This document shows, piece by piece, positions 4,150-61,509 of a DNA stretch of 64,000 bases. Positions within the stretch are counted from its first letter, which is position 1. Every line of letters starts with the position of its first letter. The stretch lies in assembly GCF_013410655.1 (NCBI RefSeq), contig NZ_JACCFP010000001.1:3991501-4055500 (forward strand), in the 5' to 3' direction. Both the position numbers and the translations under genes were made by a program. Origin of the DNA: Nocardioides thalensis (GTDB taxonomy: Bacteria; Actinomycetota; Actinomycetes; Propionibacteriales; Nocardioidaceae). The notes under the pieces were generated by a model that saw nothing but the letters and a program-made list of their open reading frames with translations, was not told the DNA's origin and made no database searches.

Positions 4150-5510
4150 CGCTGGACGTAGAAGACGCGCTGGTTGACGAACTCGCCGATGCCGAGCGGC
4201 CCGAGCTCGCGCCCGAAGCCGGAGCGCTTGGTGCCGCCGAACGGCACGTCGGCGAAGCCATCGGCGGCCGGCAGGTTGACGTTGGCCATGCCGACGTCGA
4301 GCCGCTGCGCGACCCGGGTCGCGCGCTCCTCGTCGGTCGACCAGACCGCTCCCCCGAGGCCGAAGTCCACGGCGTTCGCCAGCTCGACGGCCTCGTCGTC
4401 GGTGCTGACCTTGTAGACCACGGCGACCGGGCCGAACAGCTCCTCGTGCCACGCGCGCATCTCGGGGGTGACTCCGGTCAGCACGGCCGGGCTGAACCAC
4501 GCGTGGTCGCCGAGCTCGCCACCCACGTGCAGGGTCGCGCCCTTGTCGACGGCGTCCCGCACCTGGGCGAGCAGGCCCTCGGCCGCCTTGCGCGAGACCA
4601 TCGGCGAGTAGCCGTCGGCGTCGGTGCGGGGCGTCATCGCCGAGGCGCGCTCCACGAGACCGGCCACGAAGTCGTCGTACACCTCGTCCATGACGATCAT
4701 CCGCTTGTTGGAGTTGCAGGCCTGGCCCATGTTGGCGATCCGGGTCTGCCAGGCGGTCTCGGCGGTGGCGTCGACGTCGTCGGTGTCGAGCACGATGTAG
4801 GGGTCGGAGCCGCCGAGCTCGAGGACCACCTTCTTCAGGTGGCGACCGGCCGCCTCCGCGACGGCGGTGCCGGCGCGCTCCGAGCCCGTGAGGGAGACCC
4901 CGCGGACCCGCGGGTCGGCGATCATGGTCGCCACCTGCTCGTGGGTGGCGAAGAGGTTGACGTAGACACCGTCGGGCACCCCCGCGTCGGCCATCAGCTG
5001 CGCGATCGCGCGGGCGGAGGTCGGGCAGTTCTCCGCGTGCTTGAGGATGATCGTGTTGCCGGCGACCAGGTTGGGGGCCGCGAAGCGCGCGACCTGGTAG
5101 TAGGGGTAGTTCCAGGGCATCACGCCGAGCAGCGGGCCGATCGGCAGGTGCTCGATCCGGCCGCCGGGGTGACCGGGGAGCGGCTGGTCGGCGAGGAGCC
5201 CCGGGCCCTGGTCGGCGTAGTAGCCGAAGATCTCGGCGCAGAAGCCCGCCTCTCCGGCGGCGTCCGCGGGGCTCTTGCCCATCTCGGTGGTGATCAGCTC
5301 GCCGAGCTCCGCGGAGCGCTCGGAGAACAGGGCCGCGACCCGCTTCACCACGGAGACGCGCTCGTCGATGGGCGTCGCCCGCCACGTCTCGTACGCCGCG
5401 GCGGCGCGTGCGAGCGCGCTCTCGACCTCGGCGTCGGTCGCGAACGGGAACGTCTCCAACACCGCTCCGGTGGCGGGGTTGGTGACCTGGTAGGGCGGGG
5501 TCTGGGTCAT
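4146..5510 (-). CDS. NAD(P)-dependent succinate-semialdehyde dehydrogenase-like aldehyde dehydrogenase
   Basis: A 454-residue aldehyde dehydrogenase closest in pattern to the succinate-semialdehyde (GabD/Sad) branch. The conserved Asn134 is in MPWNYP, the general base Glu231 in LELGGSDPY, and the catalytic Cys265 in MGQACNSNKR. The NAD-binding SLTGSERAG segment is near residue 206, and the C-terminal PFGGTKRSGFGRELG is complete. The start ATG at 5510 is preceded by AGGA. The gene lies between the two gamma-glutamyl hydrolase genes, so in a Puu-like scheme it could act before hydrolysis (on a gamma-glutamyl-aminoaldehyde, like PuuC) or after deamination (on succinic semialdehyde). The sequence is nearer to the second; the position is nearer to the first. 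Confidence 0.85.
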   Translation of the reverse strand: MTQTPPYQVTNPATGAVLETFPFATDAEVESALARAAAAYETWRATPIDERVSVVKRVAALFSERSAELGELITTEMGKSPADAAGEAGFCAEIFGYYADQGPGLLADQPLPGHPGGRIEHLPIGPLLGVMPWNYPYYQVARFAAPNLVAGNTIILKHAENCPTSARAIAQLMADAGVPDGVYVNLFATHEQVATMIADPRVRGVSLTGSERAGTAVAEAAGRHLKKVVLELGGSDPYIVLDTDDVDATAETAWQTRIANMGQACNSNKRMIVMDEVYDDFVAGLVERASAMTPRTDADGYSPMVSRKAAEGLLAQVRDAVDKGATLHVGGELGDHAWFSPAVLTGVTPEMRAWHEELFGPVAVVYKVSTDDEAVELANAVDFGLGGAVWSTDEERATRVAQRLDVGMANVNLPAADGFADVPFGGTKRSGFGRELGPLGIGEFVNQRVFYVQR

Positions 5511-54729: not shown

Positions 54730-56474
54730 TGCGCGGGCCGTTCGACGTGTGGGCGCCGCGGCCGTCGCGGGTGCGGCTCGTCGCGGACGGCGACGTCGTG
54801 GAGATGGAGCGCGGCGGCGACGGCTGGTGGACCCCCACGGGTCCGGTGCCGGCGCCCCGGGACGAGGTCGACTACGGCTACCTCCTCGACGACGACAGCG
54901 AACCGCGGCCCGACCCGCGCTCGCGGCGCCAGCCCGGCGGGGTCCACGAGCTCTCGCGCAGGTTCGACCCGTCGGCGTACGACTGGAACGACCAGGACTG
55001 GACCGGGCGCCAGCTGGCCGGGTCGGTGATCTACGAGCTCCACCTCGGCACGTTCACGCCGGAGGGCACGCTCGAGGCGGCGGCCGGGCGGCTCGACCAC
55101 CTGCGGTCGATCGGCGTCGACTTCGTCGAGCTGCTGCCGGTCAACGCGTTCAACGGCACCCACAACTGGGGCTACGACGGCGTGCTCTGGCACGCCGTGC
55201 ACGAGGGGTACGGCGGGCCCGCGGCCTACCAGCGCTTCGTCGACGCGTGTCACGCGGCCGGTCTCGGGGTCATCCAGGACGTCGTCTACAACCACCTCGG
55301 CCCGTCCGGCAACTACCTGCCGCTGTTCGCGCCGTACCTCAAGGAGGGCGCCAACACCTGGGGCGACCTGCTCAACCTCGACGGCGACGGATCGGCGGAG
55401 GTGCGGCGCTACATCCTCGACAACGTGCGGATGTGGCTCGAGGACTACCACGTCGACGGGCTGCGGCTCGACGCCGTGCACGCGCTCGACGACTCCTCGC
55501 CGACGCACCTGCTCGAGGAGATGGCGGTCGAGGTCGGCGCGCTCTCCGCGCACCTGCGGCGACCGCTCACGCTGATCGCGGAGTCCGACCTCAACGACCC
55601 GGTGATGTTCACGCCGCGGGAGGCGGGCGGCTACGGCCTCGACGCGCAGTGGAGCGACGACTTCCACCACGCGGTCCACGTCGCGCTGACGCGCGAGACG
55701 ACCGGCTACTACGCCGACTTCGAGCCGCTGGCGGCGCTGAAGAAGGTCTGCGAGGAGGGGTTCTTCCACGCCGGCACCTGGTCGTCGTTCCGCGAGCGCG
55801 ACCACGGCGTGCCCATCGACACCGAGCACGTGGCGACCTGGCGGCTGGTCGTCTGCAGCCAGAACCACGACCAGATCGGCAACCGCGCCGTCGGCGACCG
55901 GCTGACCGAGCACCTCGACGACGACCAGCTCGTGTGCGCGGCACTGTTGACGCTGTGCGGCCCGTTCACGCCGATGCTGTTCCAGGGCGAGGAGTGGGCC
56001 GCGTCCACGCCGTTCCAGTTCTTCACCTCCCACCCGGAGCCCGAGCTGGGGAAGGCGACGGCGGAGGGCCGGATCGCGGAGTTCGCCCGCCACGGCTGGG
56101 ACCCCGACGTGGTCCCCGACCCGCAGGACCCCGCCACGTTCGAGCGGTCGAAGCTCGACTGGAGCGAGCTGGAGTCCGGACGACACGCCACGGTGCTCGC
56201 CGCCTACCGGGCGCTCGCCGCGCTCCGGCGTGAGCACCCGGAGCTCACCGATCCCGCGTTCGGCAGCGTCCGGTGCGAGGTTGACGAGGACGCGCGCACG
56301 TTCGTCCTGCACCGCGGCCGGCTGGCCGTCGCCGTCAACTTCGGCGACGACCGGGCCGTGCTGCCGACGGGGCACACCGACGTGCTCCTCGCCTCCCCCG
56401 CCGGCGCCACGATCGCGGACGGGGCGCTGACGCTGCTGCCGCACGCCGGCGCGCTGGTCGCGCGTCCCGCCTGA
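54729..56474 (+). CDS. treZ: maltooligosyl trehalose trehalohydrolase
   Basis: A 581-residue GH13 hydrolase that releases trehalose from maltooligosyl trehalose. It has [20 protein letters not shown] at the start, then [54 protein letters not shown], the nucleophile in [10 protein letters not shown] and the acid in [25 protein letters not shown] and [19 protein letters not shown] are TreZ hallmarks. The ATG overlaps the treY stop by one base. Confidence 0.95.
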
Positions 56475-56479
56475 ACGAG

Positions 56480-56506
56480 CCATCCGGCCGGCGCACGGCG
56501 CCGAAC
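56480..56506 (+). promoter_or_regulatory. SigK-type promoter 1
   Basis: CCATCC (56480-56485), 15 bases, CCGAAC (56501-56506), seven bases before the start of the molybdopterin gene. The same boxes and spacing recur at 58027-58053. They closely match the mycobacterial SigK consensus as I remember it (CCATCC and CCGAAT). Confidence 0.7.
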
Positions 56507-56513
56507 AACACCC

Positions 56514-58007
56514 ATGACCGGACGGACGGCGTGGGCCCTGATCGGCATCCTCTGTGCGGCGGCGGGCCTGGCCGTCGGCCATCTCGTGGCCGCGCTCCGC
56601 GACGTCGCCACCTCACCGGTGCTCGCTGTGGGCTCGGCGGTCATCGACCGCACCCCCACCCCGGCCAAGGAGTGGGCGATCCGCACGTTCGGGACCGCCG
56701 ACAAGCCGATCCTGGTCGGCTCGGTGCTGGTCGGGGTCGTCGCCTTCGCAGCGGCGGCGGGCCTGCTCGCCCGGAGGCGCCTGCGGTACGGCGCCGCGGC
56801 CCTCGCGGCCCTGGCCGGCCTCGCTGGGCTCGCTGTGCTCGACCGGCCCACGACCTCGGCGGCGGACCTCGTGCCCACCGCGACCGCGGCTGCGGTCGCC
56901 GTACTGACCCTCGTCCTGCTGGCGCGAGCCCGTCCCCGGGACACCGCGCCCGGACGCCGCGGCTTCCTGCTCGCCACCGGCGCCGTCGCCGCCCTCGCGC
57001 TGGCGTCGGGCGGCGGCGGGTGGCTGGCCAGCCGGTTGCGGCTCCGCGAGGAGGACGTGGCACTGCCGGCGCCCCGGGACCCGGCACCGCCGTTCCCCCG
57101 CGGGCTCGACGACCAGGTCCCCGGCGTCACGCCGTTCCGGACGCCGGCCGCCGACTTCTACCGGGTCGACACCCGGCTGGACACACCGGTCGTCTCCACC
57201 GACGGCTGGACCCTGACCATCGACGGCGACGTCGAGCGGGAGGTGACGCTGACGTTCGACGACCTGCTCGCGATGCCGATGGTCGAGCGCGACATCACCC
57301 TCACCTGCGTGTCCAACAGCGTCGGCGGGCCGTACGTCGGCGGCGCGCGCTGGCTCGGCGTGCGCCTGACCGACGTGCTCGACCTCGCCGGGGTGGGCCG
57401 GTCCGCCGACCAGATCCTGTCCACCGACTTCGACGGCATGACGATCAGCACCCCGCTGGCGCTCGCGACCGACGGCCGCGACGCCCTGGTCTGCGTGGGC
57501 ATGAACGGTGCACCGCTCCCCCGGGAGCACGGCTTCCCCGTCCGGCTCGTCGTCCCTGGCCTGTACGGCTTCATCAGCGCCACCAAGTGGCTGACCCGGC
57601 TGACGCTCACGACGTACGCCGACCGCGAGGCCTACTGGACCCGGCGCGGCTGGGCGACCGACGCGCCGATCAAGCCGTCCGCGCGCATCGACACCCCGCG
57701 AGCGCTCGCCCGGCTCGACGCGGGCGACGTCGTGATCGGCGGCATCGCGTGGGCGCAGGCCGACGGCGGCGTGCAGGGCGTCCAGGTGCGCGTCGACGGC
57801 GGTCCCTGGGAGGACGCGCAGCTCGGCCCGACGGCGGGCGACCCGTACTGGCGGCAGTGGTTCCATCGCTGGCGCGCGGAGCCCGGCTCCCACTCCCTGG
57901 CCGCACGGACGATCACCGCCGACGGCACGGTCCAGACCGCGGCGCGCGCCGAGCCGTTCCCGGCCGGGTCCAGCGGGATCCACGAGCTATTCGTCGAGGT
58001 CGGCTGA
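56514..58007 (+). CDS. membrane-anchored molybdopterin-dependent oxidoreductase (sulfite-oxidase fold)
   Basis: A 497-residue protein with about five hydrophobic helices in its first 170 residues (near 5-27, 65-86, 91-110, 122-137 and 152-170), followed by an extracytoplasmic sulfite-oxidase-like domain. The molybdenum-ligand Cys265 is in ITLTCVSNSVGGPYVGG; GMNGAPLPREHGFPVRLVVPGLYGF and the C-terminal Mo-co dimerisation part (GVQVRVDGGPWEDAQL) are clear. An RRGFLLATG stretch near 148 resembles a twin-arginine motif before the last helix. It is preceded by a SigK-type promoter. The substrate is unknown; repair of oxidised protein thioethers or sulfite oxidation are options. Confidence 0.87.
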   Translation: MTGRTAWALIGILCAAAGLAVGHLVAALRDVATSPVLAVGSAVIDRTPTPAKEWAIRTFGTADKPILVGSVLVGVVAFAAAAGLLARRRLRYGAAALAALAGLAGLAVLDRPTTSAADLVPTATAAAVAVLTLVLLARARPRDTAPGRRGFLLATGAVAALALASGGGGWLASRLRLREEDVALPAPRDPAPPFPRGLDDQVPGVTPFRTPAADFYRVDTRLDTPVVSTDGWTLTIDGDVEREVTLTFDDLLAMPMVERDITLTCVSNSVGGPYVGGARWLGVRLTDVLDLAGVGRSADQILSTDFDGMTISTPLALATDGRDALVCVGMNGAPLPREHGFPVRLVVPGLYGFISATKWLTRLTLTTYADREAYWTRRGWATDAPIKPSARIDTPRALARLDAGDVVIGGIAWAQADGGVQGVQVRVDGGPWEDAQLGPTAGDPYWRQWFHRWRAEPGSHSLAARTITADGTVQTAARAEPFPAGSSGIHELFVEVG

Positions 58008-58026
58008 GAAGCGGTGCTGTCCGCAC

Positions 58027-58053
58027 CCATCCGGACCGCGACCGGCGCCGAAC
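58027..58053 (+). promoter_or_regulatory. SigK-type promoter 2
   Basis: CCATCC (58027-58032), 15 bases, CCGAAC (58048-58053), 35 bases before the fasciclin gene. Boxes and spacer length are identical to those at 56480-56506. Confidence 0.72.
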
Positions 58054-58088
58054 CACCGTCACCAGTCCACCGAACGGAAGGCCCCATC

Positions 58089-58784
58089 ATGAAGCTCCTG
58101 CGCACCGTCGCCGCCGCCACCACCGTGTTCGCCCTCTCCGGCGCTCTCGCCGCCTGCAGCGAGGAGGACGAGCCCACCAACGCCTCCGACGACTCCGCGC
58201 AGACGTCGGACTCCGCGGAGCCGGAGGGCGCCGGCGACTCCGGCGACTCCGGCGACACCGGCGACATGGGCGCCGGCGCCGCGACGTTCGGCGACGGCTG
58301 CGCCGAGATCCCGACGTCGGGCGCCGGCTCCTTCGACGGCATGGTGAACGACCCGGTCGCCACCGCCGCGAGCAACAACCCGCTGCTCAAGACGCTGGTC
58401 GCCGCGGTCACCTCGATCGACGGTCTCGCCGACACGCTCAACGGCCAGGAGGCGCTGACCGTGTTCGCGCCGTACGACCCGGCCTTCGCGGAGATCCCGG
58501 AGAAGGACCTCAACGCGCTCGTCGAGGGCGGCATGAAGGACGGCCAGGACAGCACGCTCTACAAGATCCTGGCCCACCACGTGCTCCCGACCAATGCCGA
58601 CCCGGCCGCCGTCGGCGGCGACCAGGACACCCTCGCCGGGGACACGCTGACCGTCGAGGGCGACGCCGAGTCCGGGATGACCGTCTCCGACGGCACCGTC
58701 ACCGCGTCGGTGCTGTGCGGCAACATCCCGACCGCCAACGCGACCGTCTACGTCATCGACAAGGTCCTGACCGGGGTCAAGTGA
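58089..58784 (+). CDS. fasciclin-domain lipoprotein (MPT83/MPT70-like)
   Basis: A 231-residue surface lipoprotein with lipobox GALAAC and an acidic Ser/Asp/Gly linker (DSAEPEGAGDSGDSGD). One fasciclin domain follows: FDGMVNDPVATAASNNPLLKTL, then LTVFAPYDPAFAEIP, LYKILAHHVLPT and the C-terminal NATVYVIDKVL. Two cysteines (in DGCAEIP and VLCGNIP) match the disulfide of MPT70/MPT83. In mycobacteria those proteins are the main SigK targets, which fits the promoter and the sigK gene directly behind this one. Confidence 0.92.
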   Translation: MKLLRTVAAATTVFALSGALAACSEEDEPTNASDDSAQTSDSAEPEGAGDSGDSGDTGDMGAGAATFGDGCAEIPTSGAGSFDGMVNDPVATAASNNPLLKTLVAAVTSIDGLADTLNGQEALTVFAPYDPAFAEIPEKDLNALVEGGMKDGQDSTLYKILAHHVLPTNADPAAVGGDQDTLAGDTLTVEGDAESGMTVSDGTVTASVLCGNIPTANATVYVIDKVLTGVK

Positions 58785-58822
58785 CCCGAGCGTCCCGACC
58801 ACCCACGCGCAAGGATCAGACC

Positions 58823-59428
58823 ATGGACCCAGGTCAGATCGGTGCGGCCGGCACCCCCCACCCGGGGGTGCCGGCGGGCACCGGCCCCGACCTCGCCGCG
58901 CTGCTCAACCGGTCGGCACGCGGCGACCGGGCGGCGTTCGCCGAGCTCTACGACGCCACCGCCCGGCGCGTCCACGGCCTCGTGCTCCGCGTCGTGCGGG
59001 ATCCCGCCCAGGCGGAGGAGGTCACCCAGGAGGTCTACCTGGAGACCTGGCGAACGGCCAGCAGGTACGACGCGGCGAGAGGGAGCGCCGTCGCCTGGCT
59101 GCTGACGATCGCCCACCGGAGGGCCGTCGACCGCGTCCGCAGCTCCGAGGCGGCGACGCGCCGCGAGTCGACGTACCTCCACCTCAGCCGGCCGGTCGAC
59201 CACGACACCACGGCCGACACCGCCCACGCATCGCTCGAGGCGCACCGGGTGCGCTCGGCGCTCGGCAGCCTCACCGCCGTACAGCGGGAGGCGATAGAAC
59301 TTGCCTACTTCGGCGGCTACACCCACGCCGAGGTGGCCGCCCTGCTCGACCTGCCGCTGGGCACGGCGAAGACCCGCATCCGCGACGGCCTCATCCGGTT
59401 GCGCGACACGATCGGAGGAGAGTCATGA
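58823..59428 (+). CDS. sigK: RNA polymerase ECF sigma factor SigK
   Basis: A 201-residue ECF sigma factor. Region 2 is RAAFAELYDATARRVHGLV to QAEEVTQEVYLETWRTASRY, with GSAVAWLLTIAHRRAVDRVR as 2.4. Region 4 is LTAVQREAIELAYFGGYTHA followed by [25 protein letters not shown] precedes the ATG at 58823. An in-frame GTG at 58781 that overlaps the fasciclin stop is a less likely start. It is held inactive by the coupled rskA product and probably reads the two CCATCC/CCGAAC promoters upstream. Confidence 0.93.
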   Translation: MDPGQIGAAGTPHPGVPAGTGPDLAALLNRSARGDRAAFAELYDATARRVHGLVLRVVRDPAQAEEVTQEVYLETWRTASRYDAARGSAVAWLLTIAHRRAVDRVRSSEAATRRESTYLHLSRPVDHDTTADTAHASLEAHRVRSALGSLTAVQREAIELAYFGGYTHAEVAALLDLPLGTAKTRIRDGLIRLRDTIGGES

Positions 59429-60198
59429 GCGGTCACGACGACGCCGACGAGGTGCACGCGCTGTCCGGCGCGTACGCCGTCGACGCGCTCGACACCGAGG
59501 AGCGCGCCCGGTTCGAGGAGCACCTGCGCGGCTGCCCGACCTGTCGCACCGAGGTCGACGAGCTCCGCGGTACCGCCGCGCTGCTCGCCTCCGACGCCGA
59601 CGCGGAGCCGCCGGCCGGGCTGCGCGACAGCATCCTGGCGGGCATCGAGACCGTCCGGCCGCTGCCTCCGCTCGCCCCGGCCACGGGCGACGGATCCTCC
59701 GCGGCGCGGACCTCCGCGCCCACCGACCGGCGGAGCGTACGGCGGCTCCCGTTCCGGGGCACGCCGCTGCTCGCGGCGGCCGCTGCGGTGGTGCTGGTGG
59801 CTCTCGTGGGACTGGCCGCCTGGCGCCCGTGGGCGGAGCCGGACGACGTACCGACCGCCGCCGAACGCGTGCTCGCGGCGGACGACGCGACGCGCGCGAG
59901 CCAGGAGCTGCCCGACGGCTCGCGGGCCACGGTTGTGGTGTCGAGGTCCGAGGGCGCGGCGGTCATCGTCACGGAGGACATGGCGCCGGCGCCGGACGGG
60001 AAGGTCTACGAGCTCTGGCTCGAGGAGCCGGACGGCAGGCTCGCACCGGCGGGCCTGATGCCGGACGACTCCGATGCCACCGTGCTGCTCGACGGCGACG
60101 CGACGGACGCGACCGGCGTGGGCGTGACGGTCGAGCCCGACGGCGGGTCGCCGCAGCCGACCACCGAGCCGGTCCTCTTCTTCGAGCTGGAGGCCTGA
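59425..60198 (+). CDS. rskA: anti-sigma-K factor RskA
   Basis: A 257-residue membrane anti-sigma factor. The N-terminal domain has a zinc-type HxxxCxxC (His33, Cys37, Cys40) in EEHLRGCPTC, which distinguishes it from mycobacterial RskA copies I remember without it. One transmembrane helix covers about 112-133. The extracellular RskA domain has PDGKVYELWLEEPDGRLAPAG, and PQPTTEPVLFFEL at the end. The ATG overlaps the sigK stop (ATGA). Proteolysis of the membrane protein would free SigK. Confidence 0.92.
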   Translation: MSGHDDADEVHALSGAYAVDALDTEERARFEEHLRGCPTCRTEVDELRGTAALLASDADAEPPAGLRDSILAGIETVRPLPPLAPATGDGSSAARTSAPTDRRSVRRLPFRGTPLLAAAAAVVLVALVGLAAWRPWAEPDDVPTAAERVLAADDATRASQELPDGSRATVVVSRSEGAAVIVTEDMAPAPDGKVYELWLEEPDGRLAPAGLMPDDSDATVLLDGDATDATGVGVTVEPDGGSPQPTTEPVLFFELEA

Positions 60199-60211
60199 CG
60201 CGGCTGCGGAC

Positions 60212-60250
60212 CTCCGTGATATAAAACTGATATCAGTTTTTCTCACGGAG
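60212..60250. promoter_or_regulatory. nested palindrome in front of the SPFH gene
   Basis: A perfect 18-bp palindrome AAAACTGATATCAGTTTT (60223-60240) lies inside outer arms CTCCGTGA (60212-60219) and TCACGGAG (60243-60250). The region includes TATAAA and lies 10 bases before the SPFH start; the outer arm covers part of the GGAGGA ribosome site. It may be an operator (for the ribbon-helix-helix protein at 61205), an RNA hairpin, or the rskA terminator. Confidence 0.65.
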
Positions 60251-60260
60251 GAGTCGCCCC

Positions 60261-61196
60261 ATGACCTCGTCGACGGAGGACCTCGGCATCGCGCTGCCCG
60301 AGCCGAAGGTGAGCGAGCGCCAGACCAACGGCAGCAACGGGTGGCCGGTCCTCATCGGCGCAGTGCTGCTGCTCCTCGCCTCGGTGGCCGGCGTGGTCAT
60401 CGGCCTCGCCCTCCTCGCCGACGCCAACGACGCGCCCGGCCTCATCGTGATCGTGGTGTGCCTGCTCCTCGGCGTCGGGTCCCTGGTCACGCTGGCCGGC
60501 CTGACCGCGATCGCTCCCGGTGAGGCGCGGGTCGTCCAGCTCCTCGGCAAGTACGTCGGCACGATCCGCACCGAGGGCTTGCGCTGGGTCAACCCGATCA
60601 CCGGGCGCACCAAGATCTCGACCCGGATCCGCAACCACGAGACCGACGTCGCGAAGGTCAACGACGCCGACGGCAACCCGATCGAGATCGCGGCCGTCGT
60701 GGTGTGGCAGGTGCAGGACACGGCCAAGGCGCGGTTCGAGGTCGACGACTTCGTCGAGTTCGTGGCGATCCAGACCGAGACCGCCGTGCGCCACATCGCG
60801 ACGTCGTACCCCTACGACTCCCCCGACAACACCCAGCGCTCCCTGCGCGAGAACGCCGAGGAGATCACGGCCGAGCTCTCCCAGGAGATCGCCGTGCGCG
60901 TGCAGTCGGCCGGCGTGAAGGTCATCGAGTCCCGGATCACCCGCCTCGCCTACGCCCCCGAGATCGCCCAGGCGATGCTGCGCCGCCAGCAGGCGGGCGC
61001 GGTCGTCGCCGCCCGCGAGCGGATCGTCGAGGGCGCGGTCGGCATGGTGAAGGCGGCGCTCGACGGGCTCGCCGAGGAGGACATCGTCGAGCTCGACGAG
61101 GAGCGGAAGGCGGCGATGGTCAGCAACCTGCTGGTCGTGCTCTGCGGCGATCGCGACACCCAGCCGATCGTCAACGCCGGTTCGCTGTACCACTGA
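60261..61196 (+). CDS. SPFH/Band-7 domain membrane protein
   Basis: A 311-residue flotillin/stomatin-like protein. Two hydrophobic helices (about 29-52 and 60-82) precede an SPFH domain: ARVVQLLGKYVGTIRTEGLRW, NPIEIAAVVVWQVQDTAKARF, DFVEFVAIQTETAVRHIATSYPYD, and a C-terminal coiled part RRQQAGAVVAARERIVEGAVGM. Such proteins scaffold membrane microdomains. GGAGGA precedes the ATG. The ribbon-helix-helix gene begins nine bases after its stop and is probably co-transcribed. Confidence 0.9.
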   Translation: MTSSTEDLGIALPEPKVSERQTNGSNGWPVLIGAVLLLLASVAGVVIGLALLADANDAPGLIVIVVCLLLGVGSLVTLAGLTAIAPGEARVVQLLGKYVGTIRTEGLRWVNPITGRTKISTRIRNHETDVAKVNDADGNPIEIAAVVVWQVQDTAKARFEVDDFVEFVAIQTETAVRHIATSYPYDSPDNTQRSLRENAEEITAELSQEIAVRVQSAGVKVIESRITRLAYAPEIAQAMLRRQQAGAVVAARERIVEGAVGMVKAALDGLAEEDIVELDEERKAAMVSNLLVVLCGDRDTQPIVNAGSLYH

Positions 61197-61405: not shown

Positions 61406-61443
61406 GCCGACACGGGTTCCCGGGCCGGGGGTCGCGGCGGATC

Positions 61444-61509
61444 GCCAACCCTGCCGGTTCGGAGCGCCAACCCTGCCGGTTCGGCACGCCAACCCTGCCG
61501 GTTCGGCAC
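61444..61509. repeat. tandem repeat, 3 x 22 bp
   Basis: Three direct copies (61444-61465, 61466-61487, 61488-61509) of GCCAACCCTGCCGGTTCGGCAC; the first ends GGAGC instead of GGCAC. Each contains small dyads (AACC/GGTT and GCCG/CGGC). It fills the gap between convergent genes and ends six bases before the RNA-ligase stop, so it may help terminate both transcripts. Confidence 0.9.

Follow-up and report, generated by a model that had tools for sequence, protein, structure and literature searches.

Analysis of a 64,000-nucleotide window of Nocardioides thalensis (G000:C1:3991501-4055500, from a 4.57 Mb genome on one contig) suggested that four genes on its forward strand, between positions 56480 and 60198, form a regulon of the sigma factor SigK and its anti-sigma factor RskA. 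The genes encode a molybdopterin oxidoreductase (moco), a fasciclin lipoprotein (fas), SigK and RskA (Table 1), and two predicted promoters of the form CCATCC-N15-CCGAAC would serve moco and the fas-sigK-rskA unit, respectively; we put the probability of this reading at roughly 0.87. The first-pass annotation of the same DNA had placed these boxes ahead of moco and fas, with sigK-rskA downstream, and they were indeed found there, at 56480 and 58027. It had further called the two promoters identical, which holds for the boxes and their spacing; the spacer sequences themselves differ (GGCCGGCGCACGGCG and GGACCGCGACCGGCG). What the annotation missed was a second, paralogous locus, the conserved leaderless spacing ahead of moco, and the absence of two redox cysteines from SigK.

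The genome search for the boxes that it had proposed was carried out, and the results revealed four exact CCATCC-N15/16-CCGAAC sites in the whole genome, compared with one match to the reversed-pattern control. All four sites sit at two moco-fas-sigK-rskA loci, namely the present one and the paralogous one. Within the window, a looser pattern (N14-17, CCGAA) was matched three times, with 0.10 matches expected from shuffles; the third match (53148) is located within an upstream reading frame of trehalose-synthesis type. Across 147 Nocardioides genomes, 346 sites were counted against 27 controls, and over 118 genomes of the order, a pattern that additionally required an ATG 5-9 bases past the -10 box gave 36 matches, with 2 for the controls. 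An attempt to define a genome-wide regulon by relaxed matching was dropped: at two mismatches, 631 matches stood against 279 reversed controls.

Comparison of moco loci showed that the motif is conserved in position as well as in sequence. In 84 of 95 Nocardioides genomes, moco is the gene immediately before sigK and is read from the same strand, and all 20 moco genes of the genus block carry a motif (at most 3 mismatches) that ends 7 or 8 bases before the ATG. Those 20 loci contain 2003 ATGs, of which 21 score at most 2 mismatches at this spacing, and 19 of the 21 are moco starts. The box positions are 70-100% conserved, with the ATC of the -35 box and the CGAA of the -10 box invariant; the spacer is for the most part free to vary, apart from some preference for G+C. 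About 70 gene records were checked from the genus, from related families and from a Streptomyces-like family, and in these a distance of 7-8 bases separates the end of the motif from the start codon of moco; the underlying lists overlap, some genomes being in several of them, and the counts are not fully independent. Because of this distance, the moco mRNA is predicted to be leaderless, and a fixed 7-8 bases from -10 box to start codon could provide a simple genome-by-genome predictor of leaderless SigK targets.

The motif was also retained at 7-8 bases by moco genes located away from sigK (L124, L125, L127 and L128); genomes with such a separated moco are G047 (358 kb apart, L124), G026 (where fas moved along), G059 and G029. 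In L120-L123, a diverged moco (~46% identical) is transcribed divergently from a second kind of SigK-like gene, and back-to-back motifs lie between the two, 7 bases before the ATG. A moco motif of this kind is also present in Pimelobacter / Nocardioides simplex (L137). Knoellia, Phycicoccus and Intrasporangium have both the gene arrangement and the motifs, and other families likewise have the motif 7-8 bases ahead of moco. The Streptomyces-like genomes (a genus label that, like "Mycobacterium-like" below, was inferred, partly from gene order and SigK sequence) have CAATCC-N15-CCGAAT/G 7 bases before a GTG start in four of six moco genes. Together with the proximity of such sites to SigK genes, this site conservation strongly supports the annotation's assignment of SigK-type promoters. 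The same comparison argues strongly for its proposal that moco belongs to the regulon, with the qualification that membership is not peculiar to this locus: moco appears to be a core target in much of the class, and not in the Mycobacterium-like genomes tested.

Several observations weigh against so uniform a picture. Five moco genes of the genus (L126, L140, L146, L155 and L169) had no motif at 2 mismatches, and that of L087 is weak, with 3 mismatches; in a sample of 15 moco genes from other families, 8 likewise lacked a motif at 2 mismatches. The arrangement is rearranged in Arthrobacter, where CAATCC-N15-CCGAAG is positioned farther upstream of moco, so that the motif is present yet the gene is not leaderless. 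No motif was found at 2 mismatches ahead of any of the six moco homologues from Mycobacterium-like genomes, a result that fits the absence of moco from the reported Mycobacterium tuberculosis regulon.

At the second promoter, the start codon of fas is preceded by the ribosome-binding sequence GGAAGG, and the SigK site lies at least 35 bases upstream of it. Since no SigK motif was found directly upstream of sigK and no terminator-like site in 56300-60400, sigK is probably transcribed from promoter 2; the start of rskA overlaps the end of sigK by 4 bases. In the mechanism that we propose, the membrane anti-sigma factor RskA would keep SigK inactive until an extracytoplasmic signal inactivates RskA, and the released SigK would bind and direct RNA polymerase to initiate transcription at both CCATCC-N15-CCGAAC promoters. 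The mRNA from promoter 1 would be leaderless and would encode an exported molybdenum enzyme of sulfite-oxidase fold that is anchored in the membrane, and promoter 2 would yield a leadered fas-sigK-rskA co-transcript through which SigK would raise its own level along with that of its brake. The second SigK locus, having the same boxes, probably shares targets with the first.

Table 1. Features of the moco-fas-sigK-rskA locus (window positions)
Feature	Position	Strand	Remarks
SigK-type promoter 1	CCATCC 56480-56485, N15, CCGAAC 56501-56506	+	7 bases before moco ATG (56514)
moco, membrane-anchored molybdopterin oxidoreductase, 497 aa	56514..58007	+	PF00174; fold match 2BLF; leaderless mRNA predicted
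SigK-type promoter 2	CCATCC 58027-58032, N15, CCGAAC 58048-58053	+	ahead of fas
fas, fasciclin-domain lipoprotein, MPT70/MPT83-like, 231 aa	58089..58784	+	PF02469; lipobox LAAC
sigK, extracytoplasmic function (ECF) sigma factor, SigK subfamily, 201 aa, cysteine-free	58823..59428	+	NF007228
rskA, full-length anti-sigma-K factor, 257 aa	59425..60198	+	RskA_C, zf-HC2; HxxxCxxC zinc motif

The sigK product scored 268.8 bits against the NCBIfam SigK subfamily model (cut-off 226), and its best Protein Data Bank match was M. tuberculosis SigK (4NQW, E 2.9e-51). The region expected to contact the -10 element nearly matches that of M. tuberculosis SigK (TIAHRRAVDRVRS / TMAHRRAVDRVRC). C133 and C183 of the M. 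tuberculosis protein are replaced by Ala and Thr in the window SigK, and no cysteine was found at these positions in the sampled SigKs of the Nocardioides moco-fas-sigK block. Both cysteines are kept in the divergent SigK-like group of L120-L123, in Streptomyces-like proteins and in most Mycobacterium-like proteins; the pair is common but not universal in the subfamily and does not strictly define it. Cysteine-less SigK is already known (PMC7509140). To judge from the sequences, the absence is compatible with SigK-subfamily membership and excludes a C133/C183 redox switch here, and its extension throughout the sampled block shows that SigK control there is independent of the disulfide switch of M. 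tuberculosis.

RskA contains an RskA_C domain (98.3 bits), one membrane segment placed by eye near residues 113-133, and a helix 1 (HALSGAYAVDAL) close to the published AS19-1 motif (consensus HTLAGAYALDAL). The HxxxCxxC motif was present in the RskA of all 21 block members compared, each with a matched part of at least 230 residues. Cysteine loss in SigK has been associated with altered RskA, and most cysteine-less SigKs retain RskA (Veyrier et al., 2020, PMC7509140); Nocardioides would be a large example of cysteine-less SigK with RskA of normal length. The idea that the RskA zinc motif substitutes for the SigK cysteine pair was rejected because all four combinations occur among loci: an automatic table, in which some anti-sigma calls are unreliable, listed 84 with the zinc motif and no cysteines, 30 with neither, 10 with both and 5 with the two cysteines alone.

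The paralogous locus (L080) is located at ~3.022-3.034 Mb on the opposite strand and comprises, in order, a secreted protein gene with an exact site, an alpha/beta hydrolase gene, moco2, fas2, sigK2, rskA2, a FAD-oxidoreductase/DUF1365-like fusion and a cyclopropane-synthase-like gene, with TPR and DUF4331-type genes upstream in the opposite direction; the names of the fusion, the cyclopropane-synthase-like, TPR and DUF4331-type genes come from reading the translations, not from a profile search. The moco2 product is 72% identical to moco and its gene has an exact site 7 bases ahead of the ATG, fas2 is preceded by CAATCC-N15-CCGAAC, and sigK2 is 71% identical to the window sigK. FAD-oxidoreductase and cyclopropane-synthase genes also occur upstream of sigK-rskA in the Mycobacterium-like L112, and DUF4331 and TPR genes are divergent from sigK-rskA in the Streptomyces-like L111, L113 and L114; L080 joins gene neighbours that are kept apart in these two groups. 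The FAD-oxidoreductase and cyclopropane-synthase-like genes of L080 and L112 presumably correspond to Rv0449c-Rv0447c. In another Mycobacterium-like locus, L118, CCATCC-N15-CCGAAT precedes the DUF1365-like portion of the FAD-oxidoreductase match, and no site was found in L112 at 1 mismatch. The fasciclin domains of fas and fas2 (window ~58291-58788) share ~99.4% DNA identity over ~500 bases, with 3 differences, against only ~50-75% for the adjoining parts of the two operons; a recent gene conversion appears to have been confined to the fasciclin domain.

The existence of sigK2 at a locus with the same boxes, together with tens of sigma-factor-type matches in the genome, lends some weight to the reading that the boxes are real promoters used mainly by another ECF sigma factor, be it the product of sigK2 or a less closely related one, and not by the neighbouring sigK. 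However, SigK-type genes in many families of the class adjoin CCATCC/CAATCC-N15-CCGAAC/T, the window boxes have their own sigK-rskA downstream, and cross-recognition by both paralogues is likelier than exclusion, which leaves this reading improbable. Rather less probable is that the moco motif is fortuitous, or was inherited through proximity to sigK, and that moco is transcribed by read-through from treZ, whose stop codon lies 39 bases ahead of the moco ATG. The short gap and the lack of a terminator-like site in the interval given above favour read-through, and it may well supply a basal level of transcript, but it leaves the conservation unexplained: treZ as a neighbour is particular to this window, since none was found ahead of moco at 20 related loci where the motif occurs nonetheless, and the unlinked moco genes retain the motif. 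A third reading is that the motif matches by chance: in a genome rich in G+C, about one exact site is expected from composition (0.85 per genome for the exact N15 form by a first-order Markov estimate), and two-mismatch matches run to hundreds. Its probability is negligible and conservation already refutes it, since the two SigK loci account for all four exact sites and the boxes are conserved, at a fixed spacing, around a spacer most of whose positions vary. A regulon of SigK and RskA remains our preferred explanation.

As for the enzyme, the N-terminal part of moco contains several transmembrane segments, and because a twin arginine precedes the last of them, export by the Tat pathway is suggested. 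The structural model (pLDDT 82) is poor at about residues 85-92, beside an invariant cysteine. Its fold matched the sulfite dehydrogenase SorA (2BLF, E 4.8e-24; TM-score normalized to the query 0.74), and the fit of moco to SorA and to sulfite oxidases of animals and bacteria is better than that to MsrP/YedY (1XDY, E 1.8e-10). In the model, the sulfite-oxidase fold appears to be joined to a C-terminal Ig-like domain, a combination that marks the sulfite oxidase family. The protein does not come near the equivalog cut-offs for SorA, SorT or SoxC and scores 50 against the MsrP profile (cut-off 207). Methionine-sulfoxide repair of the MsrP type was considered and was not our first choice of function, the fold and C-terminal domain favouring the sulfite dehydrogenases; an msrA gene of G114 behind an exact SigK-type site may nonetheless hint at a sulfoxide theme. 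This msrA (L022 / L129, G114:C1 ~7947) starts 44 bases past an exact CCATCC-N15-CCGAAC. It seems plausible that moco takes part in oxidation or sulfur chemistry at the cell envelope.

Among the genes of the genus that follow an exact site are those for fasciclin proteins, for secreted proteins (some of which have weak collagen-like matches) and the one msrA, and they may point to an envelope or oxidation-repair theme; the list is a sample and includes chance-looking sites. The secreted protein of L080 (oriented positions 4217-4938, G000:C1 ~3029564-3030284) matches no Pfam family and stands behind an exact SigK-type site; similar secreted proteins follow such sites in L032, L039 and L044, and weak collagen-like matches were obtained for two of these. 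A band-7 gene elsewhere in the window is followed, at ~61440-61500, by short direct repeats of the 'gccaaccctgccggttcg' type, and similar words recur in other parts of the genome.

We tentatively propose, as a speculation that is more probably wrong than right, that an exported molybdenum enzyme and a fasciclin protein formed the ancestral actinobacterial SigK core, serving envelope oxidation or sulfur chemistry, that mycobacteria dropped the enzyme and kept the fasciclin antigens, and that the SigK signal is the enzyme's substrate or a damage product. To our knowledge, the work done by MPT70/MPT83-type fasciclin proteins is unknown. The signal that activates SigK is likewise unknown (PMC7509140), and a conserved enzyme partner in actinobacteria that are cultivable and harmless would offer a testable, first biochemical lead to the SigK switch.

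Conservation of SigK sites across Actinobacteria and the mpt83-sigK-rskA cassette have been published (Veyrier et al., 2020, PMC7509140), and SigK orthologues of other species are known to recognise the mpt70 promoter of M. tuberculosis (PMC7509140); the same paper reports the M. tuberculosis regulon as eleven genes. The annotation's claim of promoter recognition conserved between mycobacteria and Nocardioides has strong comparative support and is not a discovery. The present locus resembles the M. tuberculosis SigK-RskA regulon (mpt70/mpt83, sigK-rskA) in its SigK-subfamily sigma factor, RskA-family membrane anti-sigma factor, fasciclin target and CCATCC-type promoters; the best solved relative of fas is MPT70 (1NYO, E 2e-23). 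It differs in the predicted inclusion of a leaderless molybdenum-enzyme gene, such a promoter being missing at the six Mycobacterium-like moco loci, and in a SigK without C133 and C183. We know of no molybdopterin oxidoreductase among the eleven M. tuberculosis genes. The window RskA has a zinc motif, whereas that of M. tuberculosis does not rely on one (PMC7406223).

No link between SigK and a molybdopterin enzyme was found in the literature searched, which did not extend to Veyrier 2008 or the 2021 ECF reclassification; an exported enzyme of sulfite-oxidase fold as a core, leaderless SigK target outside mycobacteria is provisionally new, and cysteine-less SigK combined with full-length, zinc-motif RskA throughout the sampled Nocardioides block looks new. 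Like the sulfite oxidases and dehydrogenases (SorA 2BLF, SorT, SUOX), moco has their fold and a C-terminal Ig-like domain, and shares the cysteine that is invariant in the region of the pterin domain; unlike them, it has N-terminal transmembrane segments and is placed in an envelope-stress regulon. With MsrP (YedY) it shares the oxidoreductase domain family PF00174, but MsrP has no C-terminal Ig-like domain. Finally, fas-sigK-rskA fits the mpt83-sigK-rskA cassette that PMC7509140 describes, after Veyrier 2008, for Actinobacteria and Yersinia, in which a fasciclin gene with a SigK site is followed by sigK and rskA; compared with the cassette as described there, moco with its own site is added upstream here, and the locus is duplicated in the genome.

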